Source: an uncultured Mycoplasmatota bacterium (lineage in GTDB: Bacteria > Bacillota_I > Bacilli_A > RF39 > UBA660). From it: DNA of 33,955 nucleotides. Position 1 is the first letter of the stretch; every line of letters starts with the position of its first letter. Made by a program: the position numbers and the translations under genes. The DNA is taken from positions 1-33,955 of the forward strand of contig CAMMBL010000005.1 of assembly GCA_946494015.1 (NCBI GenBank). The letters run 5' to 3'. Positions 18,188 to 32,469 of the stretch are shown here, piece by piece. Under the pieces are notes generated by a model. The model was given only the letters and a program-made list of their open reading frames with translations, ran no database searches and was not told the origin of the DNA.

Positions 18188-20248
18188 TTATTCTTTAATT
18201 ATTCTCTTACTACAGTAATAAGTAATTAATAAGTAACCACCATATATTACTACAAGGAATACTGCTGTTAAAACTATGGCAAGTAATAAGCTCTCATTAC
18301 CAAAGGTTTCTAAGATATAATTACAGAATATTATACCAAAGATAGAATGGATAATGGCAACTACAAGTGGTGCTAGGAAAAATATCGCTATTTGTCTAAA
18401 TAAAGCTTTATTAATAAGTTTCTCATCAGCCCCAATTTTCCTTAACATCTTAAATCTTTCTTTATTTTCAGTCGCTTCACTTAACTCTTTTAAAGCAAGT
18501 ATTGCAGCACTACTTATTAAGAAAATTACTCCAAGATATAGACCAATAAAGGTAACTAAAGCTCCAAGTCCTACACTACCTTCATATATAGAAAGTCTTG
18601 TACTAGCATCTAATGTCGATCCAATATTTTCAAGGGCATCACTTTTACTAATTAAAAGATTTTCTATCTCTTGTTTCTCATCATCTGTATCAGCTTTATA
18701 GTTAGCATATAAATATTCTTTTTCTACAGTTAAATTACTAACGGCATTATCTGGTACAATAAATATTCCATCATTAACATGACTATTAGATATCTCTAAG
18801 AAACCATCCATACATTTATCATATTTAGGATAATAGGTTTTACCATCAATAGTAATAGGTGTATCAATGGCTAAAGCTGCGTTTCTAACGCCAACCATAC
18901 TATCATAGTCTGCTATTACTAGATATTCATCATTATCTAATGTATGAGTATCAAGTCCAAGTATTTTAGCGACTTTATTATAATCACTTACTGTAACAAT
19001 TTCTTCTATAGCATCATAAGTCATAAATGGATATTTCTCTTTCATATAACTGTAAGTATTACCTAACGTATCTTTTAAAGTAAGATTGGGGGTAGCATAA
19101 GTATTAATATCAACTATATTTTTATAGTATTCATTTATATTAAAACCTATGCTATCTAAATCATCTTTAATACTTAGATAAGAATTATTAATTTGTGCTT
19201 CACTATAGCCATATTCTTCCATATATTCTCTTGGTATATTTTTGGTTTTAGCAAGCTGTATATCAACAGGTGCTAACTCTTTTAAGTTCGCTGTCATAGC
19301 ATTTTTCATTGACATACAACTTGAAAAGACACAGATTGTTACAAAAAGCATTAAACATATAACTGTCATTGAAAACACTGTAGTATTAATCTTGCTACTA
19401 AACTGTTTTATCGTAAAACTATTTAGTCCTTTATAATAGAACTTCTTAAAGTGTTGTAATACTCTTAAGACAAGTCCTGATAATGAAAAAAATAGTAAAA
19501 ATGTTCCTAAGGCACCAAGACCTATAATTAAGAATATTCGCCATGTCTCTCTTAGGTTATCTACACCAACAGTTACAGAATAATAAGAGTATCCTAATAT
19601 AGCAACAGCTACTATAAAGATATCTATACAAAGATATGGATTTTTTAATTTAACAGTTTCTGTTTTTCTATTAGCATTTATTAAATCTATCAACTTACAC
19701 CGTGAAACGCTAATAGTATTAAATATCATTACAAGTAAATACATGATACCAAAGTAAATAATGGTCTTGAAAATAGCATTAGTACTAATAACAAAAGTAA
19801 ACTCTGTAAGATCAGCTTCAAACATATTAGCAACGATAACACTCATAACTTGTGATAGGACACATCCTAATAATAATCCTACTATAAGTGATAATAAGCC
19901 AATTAAGAATGTTTCTAATACTAATATTTTAGATATTTTTCCTTTACTCATACCAAGAGTCATATAAATACCAAACTCTTTATTCCTTCGTTTCATTAAA
20001 AATCTTGATGCATAAATTATAAGAAAGCCTAAAACAAAAGAAACAAAGACAGATACTCCACTTAACATATTTAACATTAAATCTATGATATCTTTAGTAC
20101 TTTCAGATACCTTCATCATCGCTGTTTGTGAGTCTATTGCATTAAATACATAGAATATAGCAACCCCAAGTACTAAAGTAAAAAAGTAAATAGCATAATC
20201 ACTTATACTTTTCTTAATATTTTTAAAAGCTAGTTTAAAGAGCATCAT
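18188..20248 (-). CDS. BceB-type ABC transporter permease (FtsX-like)
   Basis: 686 aa, FtsX-type TM segments with large extracellular domain; paired with ATPase and BceRS-like TCS. Confidence 0.93.
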   Translation of the reverse strand: MMLFKLAFKNIKKSISDYAIYFFTLVLGVAIFYVFNAIDSQTAMMKVSESTKDIIDLMLNMLSGVSVFVSFVLGFLIIYASRFLMKRRNKEFGIYMTLGMSKGKISKILVLETFLIGLLSLIVGLLLGCVLSQVMSVIVANMFEADLTEFTFVISTNAIFKTIIYFGIMYLLVMIFNTISVSRCKLIDLINANRKTETVKLKNPYLCIDIFIVAVAILGYSYYSVTVGVDNLRETWRIFLIIGLGALGTFLLFFSLSGLVLRVLQHFKKFYYKGLNSFTIKQFSSKINTTVFSMTVICLMLFVTICVFSSCMSMKNAMTANLKELAPVDIQLAKTKNIPREYMEEYGYSEAQINNSYLSIKDDLDSIGFNINEYYKNIVDINTYATPNLTLKDTLGNTYSYMKEKYPFMTYDAIEEIVTVSDYNKVAKILGLDTHTLDNDEYLVIADYDSMVGVRNAALAIDTPITIDGKTYYPKYDKCMDGFLEISNSHVNDGIFIVPDNAVSNLTVEKEYLYANYKADTDDEKQEIENLLISKSDALENIGSTLDASTRLSIYEGSVGLGALVTFIGLYLGVIFLISSAAILALKELSEATENKERFKMLRKIGADEKLINKALFRQIAIFFLAPLVVAIIHSIFGIIFCNYILETFGNESLLLAIVLTAVFLVVIYGGYLLITYYCSKRIIKE

Positions 20249-21002
20249 TTAAATCCCCTCCTAAAAGGGTTACTACATCAATTATCTCATCAAAAAACTC
20301 TTTTCGACTCTTATCTCCTCTTATAATCTCATTAAAGATCTTTCCATCTTTAATAAAGATTACTCTTTTTGCATAACTTGCTGTAAAAGCATCATGAGTA
20401 ACCATTAAAATAGTTGCATCAAACTCATCATTTAAATAATTAAAACTATCAAGTAACATCTTACTAGACTTAGAATCTAAGGCTCCTGTTGGTTCATCAG
20501 CAAGTATTAATTTAGGCTCTGTAATAATCGCTCTAGCACTAGCAACTCTTTGTTTTTCACCACCACTCATCTGATAGGGATATTTATTTAGAATATGACT
20601 TATTCCAAGTTTTTTAGCCGTATCTTTAACAAGCCTATCTATTTCTTTATAACCTTTATCTTGTATAGATAAAGCTAAGGCAATATTTTCATATGCAGTT
20701 AAGGTATCTAAAAGATTAAAGTCTTGAAAGATAAAACCCAATTCTTCCCTTCTAAACTTATTTAAATCATTTCCTTTTAGTTTAGTAATATCAACCCCAT
20801 TCATATAAATATGACCTGAAGTTACTCTATCAATAGTAGAAATACAGTTAAGTAAAGTAGTTTTACCACTACCAGATGAACCCATAATAGCGACAAACTC
20901 ACCTTTACTTACTTCAAAAGAAATATTATTAATCGCTTTAGTTAAACCACTTCTTGACCCATAATACTTCTCAATATTATCAATCTTTAATAAATTTGCC
21001 AT
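20235..21002 (-). CDS. BceA-type ABC transporter ATPase
   Basis: Walker A GSSGSGKTT, MSGGEKQR signature, Walker B LILADEPTGALD. Confidence 0.96.
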   Translation of the reverse strand: MANLLKIDNIEKYYGSRSGLTKAINNISFEVSKGEFVAIMGSSGSGKTTLLNCISTIDRVTSGHIYMNGVDITKLKGNDLNKFRREELGFIFQDFNLLDTLTAYENIALALSIQDKGYKEIDRLVKDTAKKLGISHILNKYPYQMSGGEKQRVASARAIITEPKLILADEPTGALDSKSSKMLLDSFNYLNDEFDATILMVTHDAFTASYAKRVIFIKDGKIFNEIIRGDKSRKEFFDEIIDVVTLLGGDLNDAL

Positions 21003-21074
21003 AATTTCTCCTCCTCACAAAAGAAAATATACTACTATTTATGTCTTTTGTCGTTCGTTTAACCTTACAGAATC

Positions 21075-22082
21075 TTACTTTTTTGTAATATTATAAAAAT
21101 CTTTCTTATAAATTGTAATAATAACTTTAGTATATTTATCTATCTTAGAAGAAATCTCTATTTTATGACCAAGTTTTTCACATAACTCCTTACATAGATA
21201 AAGTCCCATACCTGTAGATTTAGAACTAGCACTTCTTCCATTATTACCTGTAAACGTCTTATTAAAGACTCTTGGTAAATCACTTTTACTAATACCTTTG
21301 CCATTATCATAAATACTAATAGTAACAAAGTTATCAAAGTCTTCACCACTTATTTCAATAACAGAATCTTTTTCTTTCTTATATTTAATACTATTACTAA
21401 CAATTTGATTAATAATAAACTCTAACCATTTAGAATCAGTTAATACTTTTAAATTACAATTATTAACTTTAAAATCTATATCTAAAGCAAGTAGATCATC
21501 TTTATTTCTTAATGCTACATTTTTAATAATTGTATCTAAATCCCATTCTTTAATTAAATAATCATTATTAGCATTTTCAATTCTTACATAATAAAGTATC
21601 TGTTCTACATAATCTTCTAATTCTTTTAATACTCTTAATACATTTTTATCTTTTCTATTCATTAAAGTAAGACTAGCAAGAGGAAGTTTAACTTCATGTA
21701 TCCATAACTCTATATATTCTTTAAAGTCATCCTGTTTCTTTTTTAATTTACTTATTAAATCATGTTCATTCTTATTAACTTCATCTAAAACATCATAAAG
21801 TATCTTACCTTCTAAAAAGTTAGGAACAAGCACCATCTCTATTAAAAGATATTTTTTATCTAAAGTGTTTAATTTATCAAGTAATTCATCATAAAACTTT
21901 CTTTTTCTAAAGTAATCATAAAGTAAAATGATAATAAAGATAACGACAGTGAAAACAGTTATAAAGATAATAATACTTCTAGTTAATTTTAAAGCTATTA
22001 AGAATAGTATTAATATGATTATATAAATAGCAAAGATTATAAAAGCATAAAGTTTATCTTTTAAATAAGTATTTAACTTCAT
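21075..22082 (-). CDS. BceS-type (intramembrane-sensing) histidine kinase
   Basis: Two N-terminal TMs with short loop, IHEVKLPLASL H-box, STGMGLYLCKELCEKLGHKI. Confidence 0.94.
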   Translation of the reverse strand: MKLNTYLKDKLYAFIIFAIYIIILILFLIALKLTRSIIIFITVFTVVIFIIILLYDYFRKRKFYDELLDKLNTLDKKYLLIEMVLVPNFLEGKILYDVLDEVNKNEHDLISKLKKKQDDFKEYIELWIHEVKLPLASLTLMNRKDKNVLRVLKELEDYVEQILYYVRIENANNDYLIKEWDLDTIIKNVALRNKDDLLALDIDFKVNNCNLKVLTDSKWLEFIINQIVSNSIKYKKEKDSVIEISGEDFDNFVTISIYDNGKGISKSDLPRVFNKTFTGNNGRSASSKSTGMGLYLCKELCEKLGHKIEISSKIDKYTKVIITIYKKDFYNITKK

Positions 22083-22744
22083 TTTAATAAATATCCTTCT
22101 TTCTTTCTTGTAACAATAACATCAGAATATCCCATATCATATAGTTTTCCTCTTAATCTACTAATATTAACTGTTAGGGCATTATCATTTATATAAAGAT
22201 CACTATTCCATAAATAACTCATTAAATCATCACGAGCTACTATATTTCCTCTATTATTCAAAAGATAGGTAAAGATTAACATTTCATTTTTAGTTAAATA
22301 AAACTCATTATTATCTTTAACAACTATCCCCTTATTAGGATATATCTTTAAATCTTCATATTCTAAATAATCAAAGCTTTTCTTCATTCTTTTAAAGATA
22401 TTATTAATTCTAAGTAAAAGTATAGTCGGATTATATGGTTTAGTAATATAATCATCCGCTCCATAACTAATAGATAACACTTCATCTATTGTTTTATTGC
22501 TACTAGTTAGCATAATAACAGGAGTATTTATTTTATCATCTCGAAGATTTTTAAGTAAAGTTTCACCATTTAAATAAGGAATATTAATATCTAAAAGTAT
22601 TAAATCAGGATTTAGTTTAATAATTTCTTCTTTACTATTTTTAAAATCTGTTAATATTAAAACCTCATATCCTGAATTAGATAATAAGTTAGATAATTCA
22701 TCACATAAAGTTTTATCATCTTCTACAATTAATATTTTCTCCAT
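22079..22744 (-). CDS. BceR-type OmpR-family response regulator
   Basis: MEKILIVEDDKTLC...; receiver plus winged helix. Likely start ATG 22744 with GGGTGAG RBS. Confidence 0.94.
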   Translation of the reverse strand: MEKILIVEDDKTLCDELSNLLSNSGYEVLILTDFKNSKEEIIKLNPDLILLDINIPYLNGETLLKNLRDDKINTPVIMLTSSNKTIDEVLSISYGADDYITKPYNPTILLLRINNIFKRMKKSFDYLEYEDLKIYPNKGIVVKDNNEFYLTKNEMLIFTYLLNNRGNIVARDDLMSYLWNSDLYINDNALTVNISRLRGKLYDMGYSDVIVTRKKEGYLLK

Positions 22745-22796
22745 AAATCTCACCCAATAATAGAATATCAAAAAAAATAGCATTATGCATTAAAAT

Positions 22797-23497: not shown

Positions 23498-23977
23498 CTA
23501 ATCATTAGTAACTATTCCTAATATCTCTACATTATAAGTATTATCCCCTACTTTATAACTTACTTTATCTCCTACTTTTTTACCATAAATTGCAGAACCT
23601 AAAGGACTATTTAAGGTTATGCTATTATCATCGATATTACTATTAATATCACCAGTTAGAATATATTTTTCAACTGTATCATCATCTATAAATAATAACT
23701 CTACTTTCATATTAAGACTAACTGTGCCATTAGATTTCTTATCTACAATAACTATATCTTTTAACATGCTTTTCTTTTTATTATATTTTTGAAATAACTC
23801 GGCTTCCTTTCTCATAGCATCTTCATAAGCAAAGTTATCATGCCAGCCATCTCCATAAGCATCATCACTTACATATAAACTCATTAGTTTAGCATTGTCA
23901 TCTATTTCTTTTTTTATATCTTCAAGACTCTTTAAATAATTCTCATAACCCACTTTATCTAAATATATTTTACTCAT
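23498..23977 (-). CDS. GreA/GreB-family transcript cleavage factor homolog
   Basis: MSKIYLDKVGYENYLKSLEDIKKEI...SPLGSAIYGKKVGDKVSYKVGDNTYNVEILGI: GreA-type coiled coil and C-terminal domain. Start ATG 23977 overlaps the helD stop. Confidence 0.85.
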   Translation of the reverse strand: MSKIYLDKVGYENYLKSLEDIKKEIDDNAKLMSLYVSDDAYGDGWHDNFAYEDAMRKEAELFQKYNKKKSMLKDIVIVDKKSNGTVSLNMKVELLFIDDDTVEKYILTGDINSNIDDNSITLNSPLGSAIYGKKVGDKVSYKVGDNTYNVEILGIVTND

Positions 23978-25970
23978 AGATAATAAGCTCCTCTCTTGCT
24001 CTTGTACAAGCGACATAATATAGATATTTATTTTTCTTAAAGGTTTCATCATTATCTATTATAATAACACTATCAAACTCTAGGCCTTTAGCAATATAAC
24101 TAGGAACTACTACTAAATCTTTAATAAATGATTTAGAGTCTTCAGTTAATAAACTAATATTTAAATCATTTTTTAATAAGTCATAAATAACCTCGGCTTC
24201 CCTATTTTCTTTAGTGATGATAGCAAGAGACTTATATGTATTAGTTAGAGTATTTATATCAGTAAGTAATGTCTCTTTAATATCTTTAGGTTTTCTAATA
24301 AGAACATCTTTCTTATTACTCTTTTTAATAGCATTAACATAATCTAAATTTAATATTTTATTAGTATATTCTATTATCTCTTTAGTAGACCTATAAGTCT
24401 TTAATAACTCTAAGTAATTACTATCTGAAAATATCTCTTTTAATTCTTCAAGAGTATCATATTTATAATAAGGATTAATATTCTGATTAACATCACCTAA
24501 TATGGTAAAATCTGCTTTTTTAAACATCTCTTTAATAATTACATATTGTAAATAATTATAGTCCTGGGCTTCATCAATAACTACTTGTTTAATATAATTA
24601 TTATAAGGAAAACCAAATAATTTACCTTTTAAATATGATATAAGTAGGGCATCATCATAACCTATTACTTTGGTATTTTTAATCTCTAACTTATATTTAG
24701 CATAACTACTCTTAAAGAAGTCTTTATAGATATCTTTTATATTTAAAGAAACATTAATGTTTTCTTTAATTAATTTTCTAATCGGAGCCTTTCTCTTACC
24801 AGGAGTTCCATAATACTTTAATGATAAATATTTAGAGGCTTCATCAATTCTTTCTACTAAAGGGAATCTACTATATTTATCTTTAAGTAAATAGTTTAAC
24901 TCATCACTACTTACTTCATTTATCTTATCTAGTTCTATATTATTAATAACTTTAAAGTTCTTTATAAAAGCACTAATATAATTATCTAAGTCTTTAATAA
25001 TCTCTTTACTCTGTTTATATTTAATAATATCTACATCACTCTTATCACCTTTATAATACTTACTAATAAATGAGGGAAAACTCTCTATATTTTTATACTC
25101 TTTTAAGAAATAACTTAAGTAATCACTAAAGGTTGTCTCAAGAGTGTTCGCTTCTCCTAACTCAGGTAAGACATTAGAAATATATTCTAAAAATATCTTA
25201 TTAGGTGAAAAGATTAAAACATTATTAGAACTTAAATTATTAATTCTATATAGAAGAAAAGCGATACGATGTAAGGCTACAGATGTTTTCCCACTACCAG
25301 CGATACCTTGTACTATTAGATTATGGTCATCTAAATTACGAATTATTTTATTCTGTTCAGCTTGTATTGTATTAACAATGTTTTTCATCTTTTCATTATC
25401 AGTTGTAGCAATTACTTTTTGTAATAATTCATCATCTATATTTAGAGAATTATCAAAAACATTTATAAGATTTCTCTTATCTATTATATATTGTCTTTTT
25501 CTTAAAAGACTTCCTTTGTGAATATAGTCATCTACTCTATATTTACAAGGGCCTACTTCATAATCATAAAACAAACTGCAAATAGGACTACGCCAGTCAT
25601 AAAGAATATTATCATAATTCTCATCTTTTAAATAAGTTAAAGCCATATAAATATCATAAGTATTACCTTCATTATCTTTATAGAGAAAAGATGCAAAATA
25701 AGGCTTATCTTTAATATTAATTAAAGACTTATAATACTTTCTTTTACTGAGTACTCTTAAAGCTTCTAACTCATCGCTTGCCATTACTTGATTAAATTCA
25801 GCACTATCAAATGAAGATCTATCTTGATAATTAAATTTTCTAAAATTAATGAGTTCTTCTTCCCTTAAAAATAAGTCGCTACTAGATTTTTCAATTTCTT
25901 TATCAAGCGTTGCTAAAACATCCTGTAACTTCTTCTTTTCTTTTACTATTTCTTCTTTACTAATAGACAT
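23970..25970 (-). CDS. helD: HelD-like UvrD-family helicase (RNA polymerase recycling)
   Basis: Coiled-coil N-terminus, YDWRSPICSLFYDYEVGP, Walker A VQGIAGSGKTSVALHRIAFLLYR, VIDEAQDYN, VACTRAREELIIYE. Start ATG 25970 with GAGGGA RBS. Confidence 0.88.
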   Translation of the reverse strand: MSISKEEIVKEKKKLQDVLATLDKEIEKSSSDLFLREEELINFRKFNYQDRSSFDSAEFNQVMASDELEALRVLSKRKYYKSLINIKDKPYFASFLYKDNEGNTYDIYMALTYLKDENYDNILYDWRSPICSLFYDYEVGPCKYRVDDYIHKGSLLRKRQYIIDKRNLINVFDNSLNIDDELLQKVIATTDNEKMKNIVNTIQAEQNKIIRNLDDHNLIVQGIAGSGKTSVALHRIAFLLYRINNLSSNNVLIFSPNKIFLEYISNVLPELGEANTLETTFSDYLSYFLKEYKNIESFPSFISKYYKGDKSDVDIIKYKQSKEIIKDLDNYISAFIKNFKVINNIELDKINEVSSDELNYLLKDKYSRFPLVERIDEASKYLSLKYYGTPGKRKAPIRKLIKENINVSLNIKDIYKDFFKSSYAKYKLEIKNTKVIGYDDALLISYLKGKLFGFPYNNYIKQVVIDEAQDYNYLQYVIIKEMFKKADFTILGDVNQNINPYYKYDTLEELKEIFSDSNYLELLKTYRSTKEIIEYTNKILNLDYVNAIKKSNKKDVLIRKPKDIKETLLTDINTLTNTYKSLAIITKENREAEVIYDLLKNDLNISLLTEDSKSFIKDLVVVPSYIAKGLEFDSVIIIDNDETFKKNKYLYYVACTRAREELIIYE

Positions 25971-26016
25971 ATTATCCCTCCTTCTAATCATTAGTAAAGT
26001 TCTTTAGAAAACTAAG

Positions 26017-26062
26017 AAAACCCGCATAAATTAATATGCAGTTATGTAAGTAACCGAGTTTT
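26017..26062 (-). terminator. Terminator-like three-way-junction in the helD leader (candidate attenuator)
   Basis: Minus strand outer stem AAAACTCG/CGGGTTTT enclosing GTTA-CTTACA-TAAC and GCATA-TTAATT-TATGC, followed by CTTAGTTTTC. Confidence 0.55.
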
Positions 26063-26068
26063 AAGCAT
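26042..26068 (-). CDS. Candidate 8-aa leader peptide of helD (MLKTRLLT)
   Basis: ATG CTT AAA ACT CGG TTA CTT ACA TAA, start ~6 nt after predicted TSS, stop inside the hairpin. No SD. Confidence 0.35.
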   Translation of the reverse strand: MLKTRLLT

Positions 26069-26080
26069 AACGTCAATAAA

Positions 26081-26109
26081 AATATAACAAATTAACAATA
26101 TTTTGTAAA
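26081..26109 (-). promoter_or_regulatory. helD promoter
   Basis: Minus strand TTTACA (26104-26109), 17-nt spacer, TATATT (26081-26086). Confidence 0.6.
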
Positions 26110-26163: not shown

Positions 26164-27108
26164 ATGCAAATAAATTTAGGTTATGTAGGTAATCCTCCTA
26201 CTCTTTTAGATATATATTCTCATACTTTAACTTTTAAAGAGTTTTCTAAATATAAAGAAGATAAAGGAATAGATTTACTAACAAAAAGAATAAAGCTAAA
26301 CTTTAAAAACTTTGAACAAGTCTTAAAATATAACTATGATAACAAGATTAAATTCTATCGAATGACTCATACTATGTTCCCCTTACTTACTCATCCAAAT
26401 GTTAATATTGATTATAAATATGTCTTTAAAGATGACTTTGAAAGATTAAAAAAAATTATAAACAACTATAATATTAGAATAGATACTCATCCTGATGAAT
26501 TTTGCTTATTGACAAGCATAAATGACAATGTCACTGATAATAGTATAAAAATATTAAAATTTCATTTAGAAATATTTAAATTATTAGATATAAATGGTAA
26601 ATGTGTATTACATCTAGGTAGTGCTATGCCAACTAAAGAAGAAGCGATAAAAAGATTTATAAATAACTTTAATCATCTAAAAAATGAGCTAAAAAATCTA
26701 ATAATCCTTGAAAATGATGATAAAACTTATACTGTTACTGATACCTTAATGCTATGTGAAAAATTAAATATACCTATGGTTTTAGATTATCATCATTATA
26801 ATTGTAACCATCTAAAAAATGAAAAAATAGATAAATTATTGCCTAGAATTATAAAAACTTGGGAGCATACAGGCCTTAGTCCTAAGATGCACTTTTCCTG
26901 TCCTTTAAATGCTAAACAAAAAAGAAATCATAGTACTTATTTAAACTATAACTCCTTTGTTAAGTTTTTAAAATTATTAAAGCCTCTTAATACTGATATA
27001 GATATAATGTTAGAAGCAAAAGGGAAAGATGAAGCTTTATTTAGATTAGTAAGACAACTTAAATTTTATAAAGATTTTAAAGTAAAAGGAACTACTATTA
27101 TTTTGTAA
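26164..27108 (+). CDS. uvsE: UV damage endonuclease UvsE/UvdE
   Basis: INLGYV...YRMTHTMFPLLTHP, RIDTHPDEFCLL, LENDDKTYTV, VLDYHHYNC, DIMLEAKGKDEALFRL: UvdE TIM-barrel motifs. Confidence 0.93.
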   Translation: MQINLGYVGNPPTLLDIYSHTLTFKEFSKYKEDKGIDLLTKRIKLNFKNFEQVLKYNYDNKIKFYRMTHTMFPLLTHPNVNIDYKYVFKDDFERLKKIINNYNIRIDTHPDEFCLLTSINDNVTDNSIKILKFHLEIFKLLDINGKCVLHLGSAMPTKEEAIKRFINNFNHLKNELKNLIILENDDKTYTVTDTLMLCEKLNIPMVLDYHHYNCNHLKNEKIDKLLPRIIKTWEHTGLSPKMHFSCPLNAKQKRNHSTYLNYNSFVKFLKLLKPLNTDIDIMLEAKGKDEALFRLVRQLKFYKDFKVKGTTIIL

Positions 27109-28102
27109 GAAAGTAATTGCCTTTAGGAAAAGTAATAGTAACTTTAGTATATTTTAAATAAACAGACTCTATTTTAATATCAATACCAAGTTTATCACAT
27201 AATTTCTTAGTAAGATAAAGTCCTATACCACTAGCATTCTTCTTATTTCTATTACTACCTGTAAAACCTTTTTCAAATACTTTAGATAAATCAGCTTCTT
27301 TTATTCCTACGCCATTATCATAAATTTCTAATTTAATATTATTATTATCGCTAATACCTTTAATTCTAACAAGTCTATCTTTTTTATTTTGATATTTTAA
27401 TGAATTATTAATTATTTGTCCTATAATAAAATTTAACCATTTAATATCAGTATAAACTACTAAATTATCCAAATTACTAACTTCTACTTTAAATGAATAA
27501 TTTAATAAATAATTCTTATATTCTAATAAAACAGGGTGAACAAGATCAGCTAGGGTTACTTCTTTAATAAAATAATCTTTTTCAACTACATCACTCTTAG
27601 CATAAAAAAGCATTTTATCAACAAGTCTACTAATTTTTAAAACTTCTTCTTTTATCTTTTTATCATTATTATTATCAGCATAAAGAGATAAAGCGGCAAT
27701 TGGTGTTTTAATTTCATGAATAAAACTATCTAAAAAATCAAGATATTCATCTTTAGAATTTAAAACTTCGCTAAGTTTATCATTTAAAGACTTACAAGCC
27801 TTATCTAAAGCATAATAATAAGCCTTATTTTCTAAATCCTTAGGTTTATCTATTACTTCTTTAATTAAATATTTCTCATCTAATGAATCTACTAAAGTAA
27901 TAATTTTTTTGTATCTTTTCTTTATAAAAAAATAACTAACTGCTAAATAAATAAAAATAAATATAATAATAAGTATTACAAGTAAGATAATTACTCCTAA
28001 ATCTGTACCTATTAATAATAGATATATACCAAGAAACAATATAAATAATAAACTAGCTATTATAAAAAATATCTTTTCTTCTAAATATTCTAAAAATATC
28101 AT
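27098..28102 (-). CDS. BceS-type histidine kinase (second module)
   Basis: Two TMs, FIHEIKTPIAALSLY H-box, ASGIGLYLTKKLCDKLGIDIKI. Confidence 0.94.
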   Translation of the reverse strand: MIFLEYLEEKIFFIIASLLFILFLGIYLLLIGTDLGVIILLVILIIIFIFIYLAVSYFFIKKRYKKIITLVDSLDEKYLIKEVIDKPKDLENKAYYYALDKACKSLNDKLSEVLNSKDEYLDFLDSFIHEIKTPIAALSLYADNNNDKKIKEEVLKISRLVDKMLFYAKSDVVEKDYFIKEVTLADLVHPVLLEYKNYLLNYSFKVEVSNLDNLVVYTDIKWLNFIIGQIINNSLKYQNKKDRLVRIKGISDNNNIKLEIYDNGVGIKEADLSKVFEKGFTGSNRNKKNASGIGLYLTKKLCDKLGIDIKIESVYLKYTKVTITFPKGNYFLTK

Positions 28103-28767
28103 AACTTATAACCAACACCTCTTATTGTCTTAATAAAATTACCAAGTCCTATATCTCTTAATTTATTTCTTAATCTATTAATATTAACTATTAAAATATT
28201 CTCATCTAAATAAAATTTATCATTCCATAAATACTCTATTAATGTATCTTTACTTAAAGTATTAGGATAATTTAAAAATAGATAATACATAAGTAAAAAT
28301 TCATTTCTCGTTAATTCTATTTCTTTATCATTATATTTAATTTTAGATAAATGTAAATCTAAAACTACCCCATTAACTACTAAGTCTTTATGATTTTTAG
28401 GATTAACTTCATCTAAACATTTTCTAATTTTTAAAAGTAATAATTCTTTATTATACGGTTTAGTAATAAAATCATAACCACCGCTTTTTAAACTTTTTAA
28501 TTCATCTTCAATTTTATTTCTACTAGTTACAAAAATAACAGGTTTAGTTGTAACCTTTTTTATATTATTAATTACTTCATATCCATCAGTATTAGGTAAA
28601 TTAATATCTAGTAAAATTAAATCTGGCTTAACATCTTTAATAACTTGTTTTATATTAAGAAAATCTATTGTACTACTAACTCTATAATTATTATTAGTTA
28701 AAAGAATAGAAAGTTCTTCTCTAATAACTTCATCGTCTTCTACTATTAATATTAAATCATTCAACAT
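28099..28767 (-). CDS. BceR-type OmpR-family response regulator (second module)
   Basis: MLNDLILIVEDDEVIREELSILLTNNNYRV..., winged-helix C-terminus. Confidence 0.94.
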   Translation of the reverse strand: MLNDLILIVEDDEVIREELSILLTNNNYRVSSTIDFLNIKQVIKDVKPDLILLDINLPNTDGYEVINNIKKVTTKPVIFVTSRNKIEDELKSLKSGGYDFITKPYNKELLLLKIRKCLDEVNPKNHKDLVVNGVVLDLHLSKIKYNDKEIELTRNEFLLMYYLFLNYPNTLSKDTLIEYLWNDKFYLDENILIVNINRLRNKLRDIGLGNFIKTIRGVGYKL

Positions 28768-29744: not shown

Positions 29745-31736
29745 CTAATACTCCAAACATCTTTTAAATGAAAAATAGGCAATTAAATAATATATTAAAT
29801 AAATAATTAGGAATAATCCTGAACTTAGTAAAATAAATAACAGATAAGATAAATCATTAGGAAGAAAAGCAGCAAATATATGATTTAAACTAGTTGTAAT
29901 AGAAATATTAATAATAAATGGAAGAATTACTGGAAATAAGAAATAAATTAATAATTGTTTTCTAACTGTCTTTAAAATCTTTCTTTTTCCAAGTCCTAGT
30001 TTATTTAAAATATTATAATACTTCTTATAAGTAATTGCATCATTTATACTTTGAACAGCAATTATAGTACCAGTTACTACAGTAAAGATAAAGGCTAGAT
30101 AAAATAAAGTAAAGTCCATAATCGTCATAACAGATTTATTAGTAGCCATATAATATCCTTTTACAAAAACATTAGCACTAGCATAACAATAAGTAGTGCC
30201 AGTATCAGGATCAGTTTCACAAATATCTTCATCTAGGATATTAAGAAGTTCATTATTTAATTCTTCTTTTGTTTCTTCTTTGGTATCAACTACTAAAGTA
30301 TCTGATTCTCTTTTTAAACTATTAACAATATCATCAGGTACAACAATAACAAAACCATTACCATAAGACCAACTAGAAGTATAATAAGCATCAGTTATAC
30401 CTTTTAATTTTAAAGATTTATCTCCTACTTTAATAGTATTAATTTTATCTTTTATATCTATAATACCATCATAACTACTACTAGATGAATGAATATAATA
30501 TTCATCTTTATCTAAAGTTATAGGACTTCTTCCTTTAAGTTCTAATAGTTTATTATAATCACTTAATCTTAAATAAGTATCAGTACCTCTCCATCCTTTA
30601 TAATCATAAGATAAGTTATCATCAACATAATTTATATCATTAAAATATTCATGATAAGTAAATACTTCTTTTATTTCATAATCCTTCTTAATATGATTAA
30701 TATATTTATCAAAGTTTTCTTCATCATCAATAACTGTAACATCATAAGGGGCGGACATATCTAATTGAATATCAAATATTTTATTAAACATTAAAGAAAA
30801 TGTTAAAGATACAAGTGTAAGAGTTATTAATAAAGATAGTGTACCTAAAGATTTTTTCATAGTCTTAACTTTAGTATCAAATTGTCTTACAACAAAAAGA
30901 TTATCTTTATTATATTTAATTTTCTTATGCTTTAAAACAAAGGATAAAATAAATTCGGCAAAAGATGAGATAAATAAGTAAATACCTAATATCAACATAA
31001 TAATAGATAGTAGTACTAATAAAGTATCAGGCTCTATTCCTACACCTATAAATTCATTATTAAAAATAACTAATCCTCCTATAATAAGGATTAAAGAAAT
31101 TATAAAAGAAATAACAGATTTCTTTTTATTAATTTTACTTTTTTCATTAAAATTATCTAAGTATAATAAATCATGTATTTTTAAACGTTTAATTCGTCTT
31201 CTAGTTAAAAATAATACTACTAAATAAATTAAAAGAAAATATCCTAAAGATAAAAGTATAGGTACTAAATAATTACTAGGTAATTTAACAATATATGGAG
31301 CGTTAAATATATTTAAAATAATGCTAGATATAATAGTACTTAATAAAATTCCTCCAAAAAAGGATAGGACTAAAGAGATAAAACCTAGTATTAAATTTTC
31401 TAAAATAAACATTTTAGAGATATCTTTTTTACTTATTCCAAGTAATAAATATAAACCAAACTCTTTACTTCTTCTTTTAAAAATAAATTTAATCATATAG
31501 TTAATTAAAAATCCTAAAACAAAACAGACAATTAAACTAACAAAAATAACAGCAATCTTAAAATTTTTCATCATATCAGCAAGTTCTAAAATATCTTTAG
31601 AATTAGAAATAAGATTAAATGAAAACATAAGAGAAAAAGCTATTGTAATAGTAACTATATAAATTAAATAATCTTTTATACTTTTCTTAGCATTACCTAA
31701 AGCAAGTTTTTTAAGCATTTTAGACATCTCCTCCAA
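29745..31736 (-). CDS. BceB-type ABC transporter permease (second module)
   Basis: 663 aa, same architecture as 18188-20248; FKRRSKEFGLYLLLGISKKDISKMFILENLILG. Confidence 0.93.
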   Translation of the reverse strand: MEEMSKMLKKLALGNAKKSIKDYLIYIVTITIAFSLMFSFNLISNSKDILELADMMKNFKIAVIFVSLIVCFVLGFLINYMIKFIFKRRSKEFGLYLLLGISKKDISKMFILENLILGFISLVLSFFGGILLSTIISSIILNIFNAPYIVKLPSNYLVPILLSLGYFLLIYLVVLFLTRRRIKRLKIHDLLYLDNFNEKSKINKKKSVISFIISLILIIGGLVIFNNEFIGVGIEPDTLLVLLSIIMLILGIYLFISSFAEFILSFVLKHKKIKYNKDNLFVVRQFDTKVKTMKKSLGTLSLLITLTLVSLTFSLMFNKIFDIQLDMSAPYDVTVIDDEENFDKYINHIKKDYEIKEVFTYHEYFNDINYVDDNLSYDYKGWRGTDTYLRLSDYNKLLELKGRSPITLDKDEYYIHSSSSSYDGIIDIKDKINTIKVGDKSLKLKGITDAYYTSSWSYGNGFVIVVPDDIVNSLKRESDTLVVDTKEETKEELNNELLNILDEDICETDPDTGTTYCYASANVFVKGYYMATNKSVMTIMDFTLFYLAFIFTVVTGTIIAVQSINDAITYKKYYNILNKLGLGKRKILKTVRKQLLIYFLFPVILPFIINISITTSLNHIFAAFLPNDLSYLLFILLSSGLFLIIYLIYYLIAYFSFKRCLEY

Positions 31737-32469
31737 GTAAAGTTAAAACATTTATAATTTCATCATAAAATTCTTCTCTTTTCTTATTAGCTTTATTTAT
31801 TTCGTTAAATATTTTCCCATCTTTAATAAATAAAACTCTAGCAGCATAACTAGCTGAATATGCATCATGAGTAACCATTAAAATAGTTGAATTTAATTCT
31901 TCATTCATTTGTTTAAATGTTTCTAATAAAACTCTAGCATTACGAGAATCTAAGGCTCCAGTTGGTTCATCAGCAAGAATTAGTTTAGGATTATTAATTA
32001 AAGCTCTAGCACTAGCACATCTTTGTTTTTGTCCTCCACTTACTTCATAAGGATATTTATCTAAAATATCACTAATTCCTAATTTTTTACTAATATCTAA
32101 AACTAAATTATCAATCTTAGTTTTATCTTTTTTATTAATAATAAGTGATAAAGCAATATTTTCTTTAATAGTTAAAGTATCAAGTAAATTAAAGTCTTGA
32201 AAAACAAAGCCAAGATTATTTTTTCTAAAATCAGATAACTTTTCTTCATCTAAGGTTGTAATATCTTCACCACCAATAAAAATATGACCACTAGTAACAG
32301 TATCTATAGTTGAAATCATATTAAGTAATGTTGTCTTACCACTACCACTAGCCCCCATAATAGCGACAAATTCATTATCATTAACTATAAAAGATATATT
32401 ATTCAAAGCTTTAGTAATATTATTATTTCCATAATATTTCTTTAAATTATTTACTTTTAAAACTTCCAT
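31720..32469 (-). CDS. BceA-type ABC transporter ATPase (second module)
   Basis: Walker A GASGSGKTT, VSGGQKQR, LILADEPTGALD. Confidence 0.96.
   Translation of the reverse strand: MEVLKVNNLKKYYGNNNITKALNNISFIVNDNEFVAIMGASGSGKTTLLNMISTIDTVTSGHIFIGGEDITTLDEEKLSDFRKNNLGFVFQDFNLLDTLTIKENIALSLIINKKDKTKIDNLVLDISKKLGISDILDKYPYEVSGGQKQRCASARALINNPKLILADEPTGALDSRNARVLLETFKQMNEELNSTILMVTHDAYSASYAARVLFIKDGKIFNEINKANKKREEFYDEIINVLTLLGGDV

Follow-up and report, generated by a model that had tools for sequence, protein, structure and literature searches.

The helD locus

HelD frees stuck RNA polymerase, recycles the enzyme and protects against rifampicin. The window (the whole stretch of 33,955 nucleotides analysed) is contig 5 of a 1.23-Mb genome and carries a helD gene, the product of which scores 430.4 bits against the whole-protein NCBIfam model HelD_BACSU; since the curated cut-off is 419, the protein is assigned to class I HelD. 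The closest matches in named records are from Candidatus Onthousia and other uncultured Bacilli. The start codon is the ATG at 25970, and the longest called ORF begins in the same frame at 25991. The GreA-like ORF downstream scores under the NCBIfam GreA equivalog cut-offs and is probably the operon partner of helD, in a HelD plus Gre-factor operon. The features of the locus are listed in Table 1.

Two response regulator/sensor kinase pairs flank helD (20235-22783 and 27098-28767, minus strand), and an ABC transporter ATPase gene adjoins one of them. An Rfam search of the window returned no family above the gathering threshold over the helD leader; elsewhere it found one tRNA and a T-box leader at 1243-1486 on the minus strand (RF00230, 137 bits).

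Table 1. Genes and leader elements at the helD locus, in positions of the window
Feature	Position	Strand	Basis or remark
GreA-like ORF, overlapping the 3' end of helD	23498..24052	-	Pfam GreA_GreB, 6e-17
helD, class I HelD, 666 aa	23970..25970	-	NCBIfam NF041464 HelD_BACSU
Long-range helix of CTTTACTAAT (25999-25990) with ATTAGTAAAG (25964-25955, helD codons 3-6)	25955..25999	-	RNAalifold, pair counts
Copy 2, GTTTTCTTAGTTTTCTAAAGAAC, complementary to boxA GTTCTTTGAAAACTAAG(C)AAAAC; starts in the terminator U-tract	25999..26021	-	RNA duplex energy
Intrinsic terminator, hairpin CTGCATATTAATTTATGCGG plus interrupted U-tract GTTTTC	26016..26041	-	scan, folding, conservation
Eight-codon ORF MLKTRLLT of the initial annotation, judged no gene	26042..26068	-	no fixed stop; L027 and L053 lack the ATG
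Copy 1, GACGTTATGCTTA, at the predicted start of the transcript; complement of TAAGCAAAACGTC in own pre-16S leader	26062..26074	-	near-invariant in genus
helD promoter, -35 TTTACA, 17 bp, TG-n-TATATT (extended -10)	26081..26109	-	predicted; shared by every complete orthologous leader in the genus
uvdE	26164..27108		divergent from helD

Promoter, terminator and folds of the helD leader

The initial annotation had described the helD leader as a three-way-junction terminator with an embedded eight-codon ORF, resembling an attenuator of the antibiotic type. Its promoter, TTTACA-17-TATATT, is confirmed on the minus strand at the place given, with the -35 hexamer at 26109-26104, the -10 hexamer at 26086-26081 and a TG preceding the latter. 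The predicted transcription start site (TSS) lies ~104 nt from the helD ATG. TTGACG was considered as the -35 element of a second promoter and rejected, because no conserved -10 element lies downstream of it.

The terminator hairpin occupies 26041-26022 and is followed by GTTTTCTTAG. A scan of 4.5 kb yielded three terminator-like sites, compared with 0.5 expected from shuffles. Taken from the TSS to the end of the terminator, the RNA of 61 nt does fold as a three-way junction (-10.1 kcal/mol), but with a z of only -1.8, 12 of 200 shuffles being equally good, and when the full leader is folded the terminator hairpin alone persists. Among 20 distinct orthologous leaders this hairpin is 100% paired, with a compensatory change at one pair (GC/AU/GU); the figures are 91% for the outer A:U stem of the junction and only 33% for its first arm (GTTA/TAAC), which is therefore not conserved. 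The exclusive fold GTTATG/CATAAC, which had also been proposed, exists, but in the window species only.

A cis antiterminator in which copy 1 pairs with the 5' arm of the terminator (UAUGC/GCAUA) was rejected, as it leaves the terminator probability unchanged and the pairing is lost in two orthologous leaders (L027 and L053). The predicted probability of the terminator is ~0.83-0.99 whether the 5' end is free or blocked, which argues against a switch in cis, and no competing, mutually exclusive antiterminator fold is predicted in 23 leaders.

The eight-codon ORF is present (26068-26042), but it is unconserved and has no Shine-Dalgarno sequence, its ATG standing about 6 nt from the predicted TSS. 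Its counterparts in orthologous leaders read MLKT* (n = 11), MLKI, MLNL, MLKTYI and others, from 4 to 34 residues, and some of the longer frames run through the terminator; in the L027 and L053 leaders the ATG is absent altogether.

Downstream, CTTTACTAAT, which precedes the Shine-Dalgarno sequence, is exactly complementary to helD codons 3-6 (ATTAGTAAAG) over 10 pairs, and the resulting long-range helix would enclose both the Shine-Dalgarno sequence AAGGAGGG (25983-25976) and the start codon. This suggests that the translation-initiation region of helD is structured; all 10 pairs are invariant in the genus, so that a covariation test is impossible.

A terminator-like sequence, AAAACTGTAATAAAA(G/T/C)TTACAGTTTTTTTGT, recurs near gene starts in several species; it is found at the start of an ORF of the window (31720-32469, minus strand) and in L042, L048 and L049.

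Leader terminators across the family

The helD upstream regions were gathered across the taxonomic family. Of these 110 regions, which are not phylogenetically independent of each other, 44 have a hairpin with a T-run immediately before helD, compared with five of 86 control genes (other genes in the window and its relatives) under the same test; one of the five control positives is a helD leader reached from another start. The helD terminators are unrelated in sequence, as illustrated by CTACATA..TATGTAG, ACGGACC..GGTTCGT and GCGTTCTTG..CAAGGAACGT, and what recurs is the layout: a near-consensus promoter, usually 15-47 nt, a terminator and a Shine-Dalgarno sequence. The predicted promoter, the intrinsic terminator and helD are real and conserved in Candidatus Onthousia-type Bacilli, and attenuation of helD is a trait of the family. 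Of the attenuator originally proposed, a terminator gating helD is thus well supported by conservation and by recurrence across genera, while its assignment to the leader-ORF antibiotic type is unsupported.

Complementarity to the pre-16S rRNA leader

The strongest conservation within the genus lies in the first ~13-14 nt of the transcript (GACGTTTATGCTTA) and in a block after the terminator (GTTTTCAAAGAAC), and exceeds that of the terminator. Because the latter block is the reverse complement of the boxA of rRNA leaders, the rRNA operons were examined. Within the genus, pre-16S leaders carry TGTTCTTTGAAAACTAAGCAAAACGTCAA, found on contig 1 in the window's own genome, and the reverse complement of this stretch, TTGACGTTTTGCTTAGTTTTCAAAGAACA, matches both helD blocks in order. 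The complementary target in the pre-16S leader is boxA plus the next 15 nt.

With the rRNA leader of the same genome as partner (L289, G000:C1), copy 1 alone pairs at -16.3 kcal/mol and copy 2, almost over its full length, at -23.6 kcal/mol, a value that none of 200 shuffles equals. Swapped partners beat the own pair of helD and rRNA leaders in 1 of 40 cases. When the full helD leader is co-folded with the rRNA leader, the joint energy is -52.2 kcal/mol, compared with -22.3 and -9.3 separately, so that the complex is favoured by ~20 kcal/mol; in it the rRNA leader bridges the two copies, while the hairpin of the terminator survives as an arm. The same stretch of rRNA normally pairs with the 16S trailer (leader:trailer co-fold, -55.3 kcal/mol), and the helD leader therefore appears to imitate the trailer.

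In 35 congeneric genomes, near-exact copy 1 is found in helD leaders only, and anti-boxA matches fall mostly in rrn itself and in helD, with a few single other sites. Matches to copy 1 with one or two mismatches were considered as paralogous sites and rejected, since the surroundings of those read in context are unrelated and include no helD-like leader. Plasmid-borne helD loci of Bacillus, Priestia, Paraclostridium, Peptoclostridium and Niallia have no similar leader.

Two further patterns are seen among the helD leaders. Three helD relatives that have no leader terminator (L145, L205 and L232) carry a contiguous anti-boxA segment, such as TTGCTTAGTTTTTAAAGAGCAA, directly upstream of the Shine-Dalgarno sequence, which suggests that the same complementarity may be used post-transcriptionally there. 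The helD transcript of L091 (genus g41) starts with TACGCAGCTTGATTAGAGCAAAAAA, which looks like the rRNA leader's 5' end in the sense orientation (AACGCAGCTTGAGAAAAAGCAAA) and not like its complement, and a similar CAACTTG is present in L104, L140, L190 and L195; such starts possibly represent another form of rRNA-leader mimicry.

Tracking of the rRNA leader between genera

The 5' end of helD follows the rRNA leader in 12 genera. An rRNA CGTC is matched by a helD GACG in seven (g1, g30, g38, g230, g267, g302 and g310), TGTC by GACA in two (g28 and g239), and AAGTC by GACTT in three (g211, g224 and g306), and copy 1 sits at the predicted +1 each time. When partners were permuted at the genus level among 22 genera, the observed pairing energy was reached in 1 of 2000 permutations. 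On the HelD protein tree one clade unites the TGTC/GACA genera and a separate one the AAGTC/GACTT genera, which indicates two independent paired changes, and two only. Nature appears to have already made the one-base swap on each RNA that leads from GACG/CGTC to GACA/TGTC.

In genus g265 the rRNA leaders have lost the GTC and the helD leaders retain only the contiguous anti-boxA block. There rRNA GATC or GTTC is matched by helD AAAGAT or AAAGAAC; in particular, the helD of L145 has GAT and not GAA, as its boxA (GATC) requires. In genera g31, g41, g55 and g244 a leader terminator is present but no clear copy 1. The assemblies of g227, for which the predicted rRNA leader is TAAAGTAAAAAGTCAA, yielded no rRNA leader. 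The genomes were assembled from metagenomes and often lack their rRNA operons, and their promoters and TSSs are predicted ones.

A proposed mechanism and its alternatives

The reading that we favour, and to which we give slightly better than an even chance, is that the helD leader is of the attenuator type and reads the pre-16S leader by base pairing, helD being low during rRNA synthesis. The transcript would open with copy 1, which complements the ~13 nt immediately 3' of boxA; an intrinsic terminator would follow after ~20 nt, and copy 2, from the U-tract onward, would cover boxA. Free rRNA leader, abundant during rRNA synthesis, would pair with the nascent 5' end of helD and help the weak terminator, its A-rich strand (GAAAAC) pairing with the interrupted U-tract. 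Any helD mRNA that is read through would form an RNase III-like duplex with the rRNA leader and become a processing substrate. When rRNA synthesis falls, the polymerase being inhibited or depleted, the leader would be gone and HelD would be made, probably together with the GreA-like factor. Since free leader would both aid termination and render read-through processable, helD is expected to rise as rRNA synthesis falls, which agrees with the induction of B. subtilis helD by rifampicin (PMC12802891). That the two RNAs pair in cells, with this sign and to this signal, we infer; what the computations show are the promoter, the terminator, the complementarity, its tracking between genera and its specificity for rrn and helD.

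Some points stand against this mechanism. The terminator forms by default, so that switching by a repressive partner is not obvious; pairing in trans before the terminator has only about a second; and copy 2, downstream of the U-tract, cannot join the termination decision. The small number of paired changes, the genera that lack copy 1 and the plasmid loci without a similar leader also count against it. More broadly, we propose, tentatively and at somewhat below an even chance, that the leader of the 16S precursor is a trans-acting regulatory RNA, with the helD 5' UTR mimicking the 16S trailer and with its terminator and the fate of the mRNA reporting the amount of unpaired leader, possibly with boxA acting in trans.

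A serious rival is the opposite sign, because the leader is OFF by default and an ON input is needed. Where a polymerase stalls on rRNA short of the trailer, the pre-rRNA leader would stay unpaired, bind copy 1 and switch helD on. It would do so either by delivering boxA-bound NusB/S10 in trans to the polymerase ahead of the terminator or by protecting the mRNA 5' end. We know of no case of boxA acting in trans. HelD acts on stalled polymerase, for which unpaired leaders would be an apt signal, and copy 1, which pairs just 3' of boxA, would leave boxA free. Copy 2, however, would hide it, and rifampicin, which induces helD in B. subtilis, removes nascent rRNA (PMC12802891). We regard the opposite sign as unlikely, although deserving of weight.

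In B. subtilis, helD is controlled by convergent promoters, PhelD and Panti-helD, of which the antisense one represses and rifampicin relieves the repression (PMC12802891). If the same mechanism operated here, the complementarity to rRNA would be incidental. The leaders are of similar length, the TSS of the B. subtilis ortholog being 98 nt from the ATG with 39 bp between the sense and antisense TSSs (PMC12802891), and a weak antisense element, TTGAAA-16-TAAATT, would in most of the genus place its start ~35 bp away from the sense TSS. However, the score of this element is rarely above those of shuffles (5-18% at best, 58% in the window species), it is absent in L027, and in many genera the Shine-Dalgarno sequence follows the terminator within ~20 nt, which leaves no room for an antisense promoter. 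The sense terminators and the tracking of rRNA would also be left unexplained, and we consider this mechanism improbable here.

We assign a similarly low probability to plain constitutive attenuation or a DNA-level operator, in which the conserved 5' end would be a protein site or a determinant of promoter escape, with no rRNA contact. The conservation of the initial transcribed sequence right after a strong promoter would fit, as would the dependence of B. subtilis PhelD on slow promoter escape (PMC12802891), but neither the tracking of the rRNA leader between genera nor a second block complementary to boxA is predicted. The ribosome-mediated leader-peptide attenuator of the initial annotation, for which the window species offers a terminator and a short ORF, deserves hardly any credence, as it is contradicted by an unconserved ORF without a ribosome-binding site and by a pre-terminator leader (~33 nt) that is too short, with no antiterminator.

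Comparison with known systems

The helD leader shares with the leader-peptide attenuators of Firmicute resistance genes the order of promoter, short leader, terminator and gene, and an intrinsic terminator is indeed found between promoter and gene. Unlike them, it has no conserved or translatable ORF, nor is an exclusive antiterminator found.

The B. subtilis helD alarm is likewise built on an orthologous class I HelD, strong control in a ~100-nt leader and low basal expression, and inhibited RNA polymerase is a plausible shared signal. The difference is that the present leader has no convincing antisense promoter, but does carry a sense terminator and blocks complementary to the pre-rRNA leader. 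A link to rifamycin through the B. subtilis ortholog is plausible (PMC12802891).

In pT181/pIP501-type attenuators (PMC4878617 for pT181) a trans RNA is complementary to the leader upstream of an intrinsic terminator, and the pairing and covariation computed here give the helD leader the same property. However, pT181 needs a default antiterminator, and since none is predicted in the helD leader, the latter is not filed as a member of this type. Moreover, the partner would be an rRNA precursor, whereas that of pT181/pIP501 is a dedicated, cis-encoded antisense RNA.

Small RNAs from rRNA and tRNA operon spacers, such as rrA, rrB and rrF of E. coli, have been described (PMC8144298). Like the pre-16S leader here, these are stable-RNA by-products proposed as regulators, but they come from positions other than the 16S 5' leader. 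The sponges made from tRNA external spacers are also by-products of stable RNA that are proposed to serve as regulators. To our knowledge, no rRNA/tRNA spacer RNA pairs with helD or uses the 16S 5' leader.

An antisense RNA on the 23S-5S rRNA leader of H. pylori resembles the present case in that an RNA complementary to an rRNA leader gives a processable duplex. Such an antisense RNA on an rRNA leader is described as driving RNase III processing (PMC8708148); it is a convergent cis RNA acting on rRNA, whereas here the mRNA leader is encoded elsewhere and the mRNA is the likely target. The actinobacterial rifamycin-associated element (RAE), a 19-bp DNA palindrome (PMC12802891), is likewise a leader or promoter element of helD-type genes, but copy 1 is not a palindrome. 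A limited search of the open-access literature found no report of an mRNA pairing with a bacterial 16S leader.

Implications

Synthesis of rRNA is the largest consumer of RNA polymerase, and the sequence comparisons suggest that HelD levels may be set by sensing it. If so, the helD leader would sense rRNA transcription directly, as an RNA, and RNA would link rRNA synthesis with a polymerase-recycling, rifampicin-protecting factor, two things not known to be connected in that way. The discarded pre-16S leader would gain a regulatory role, and Firmicute-like bacteria would have a second route to the control of helD beside the convergent promoters of B. subtilis.
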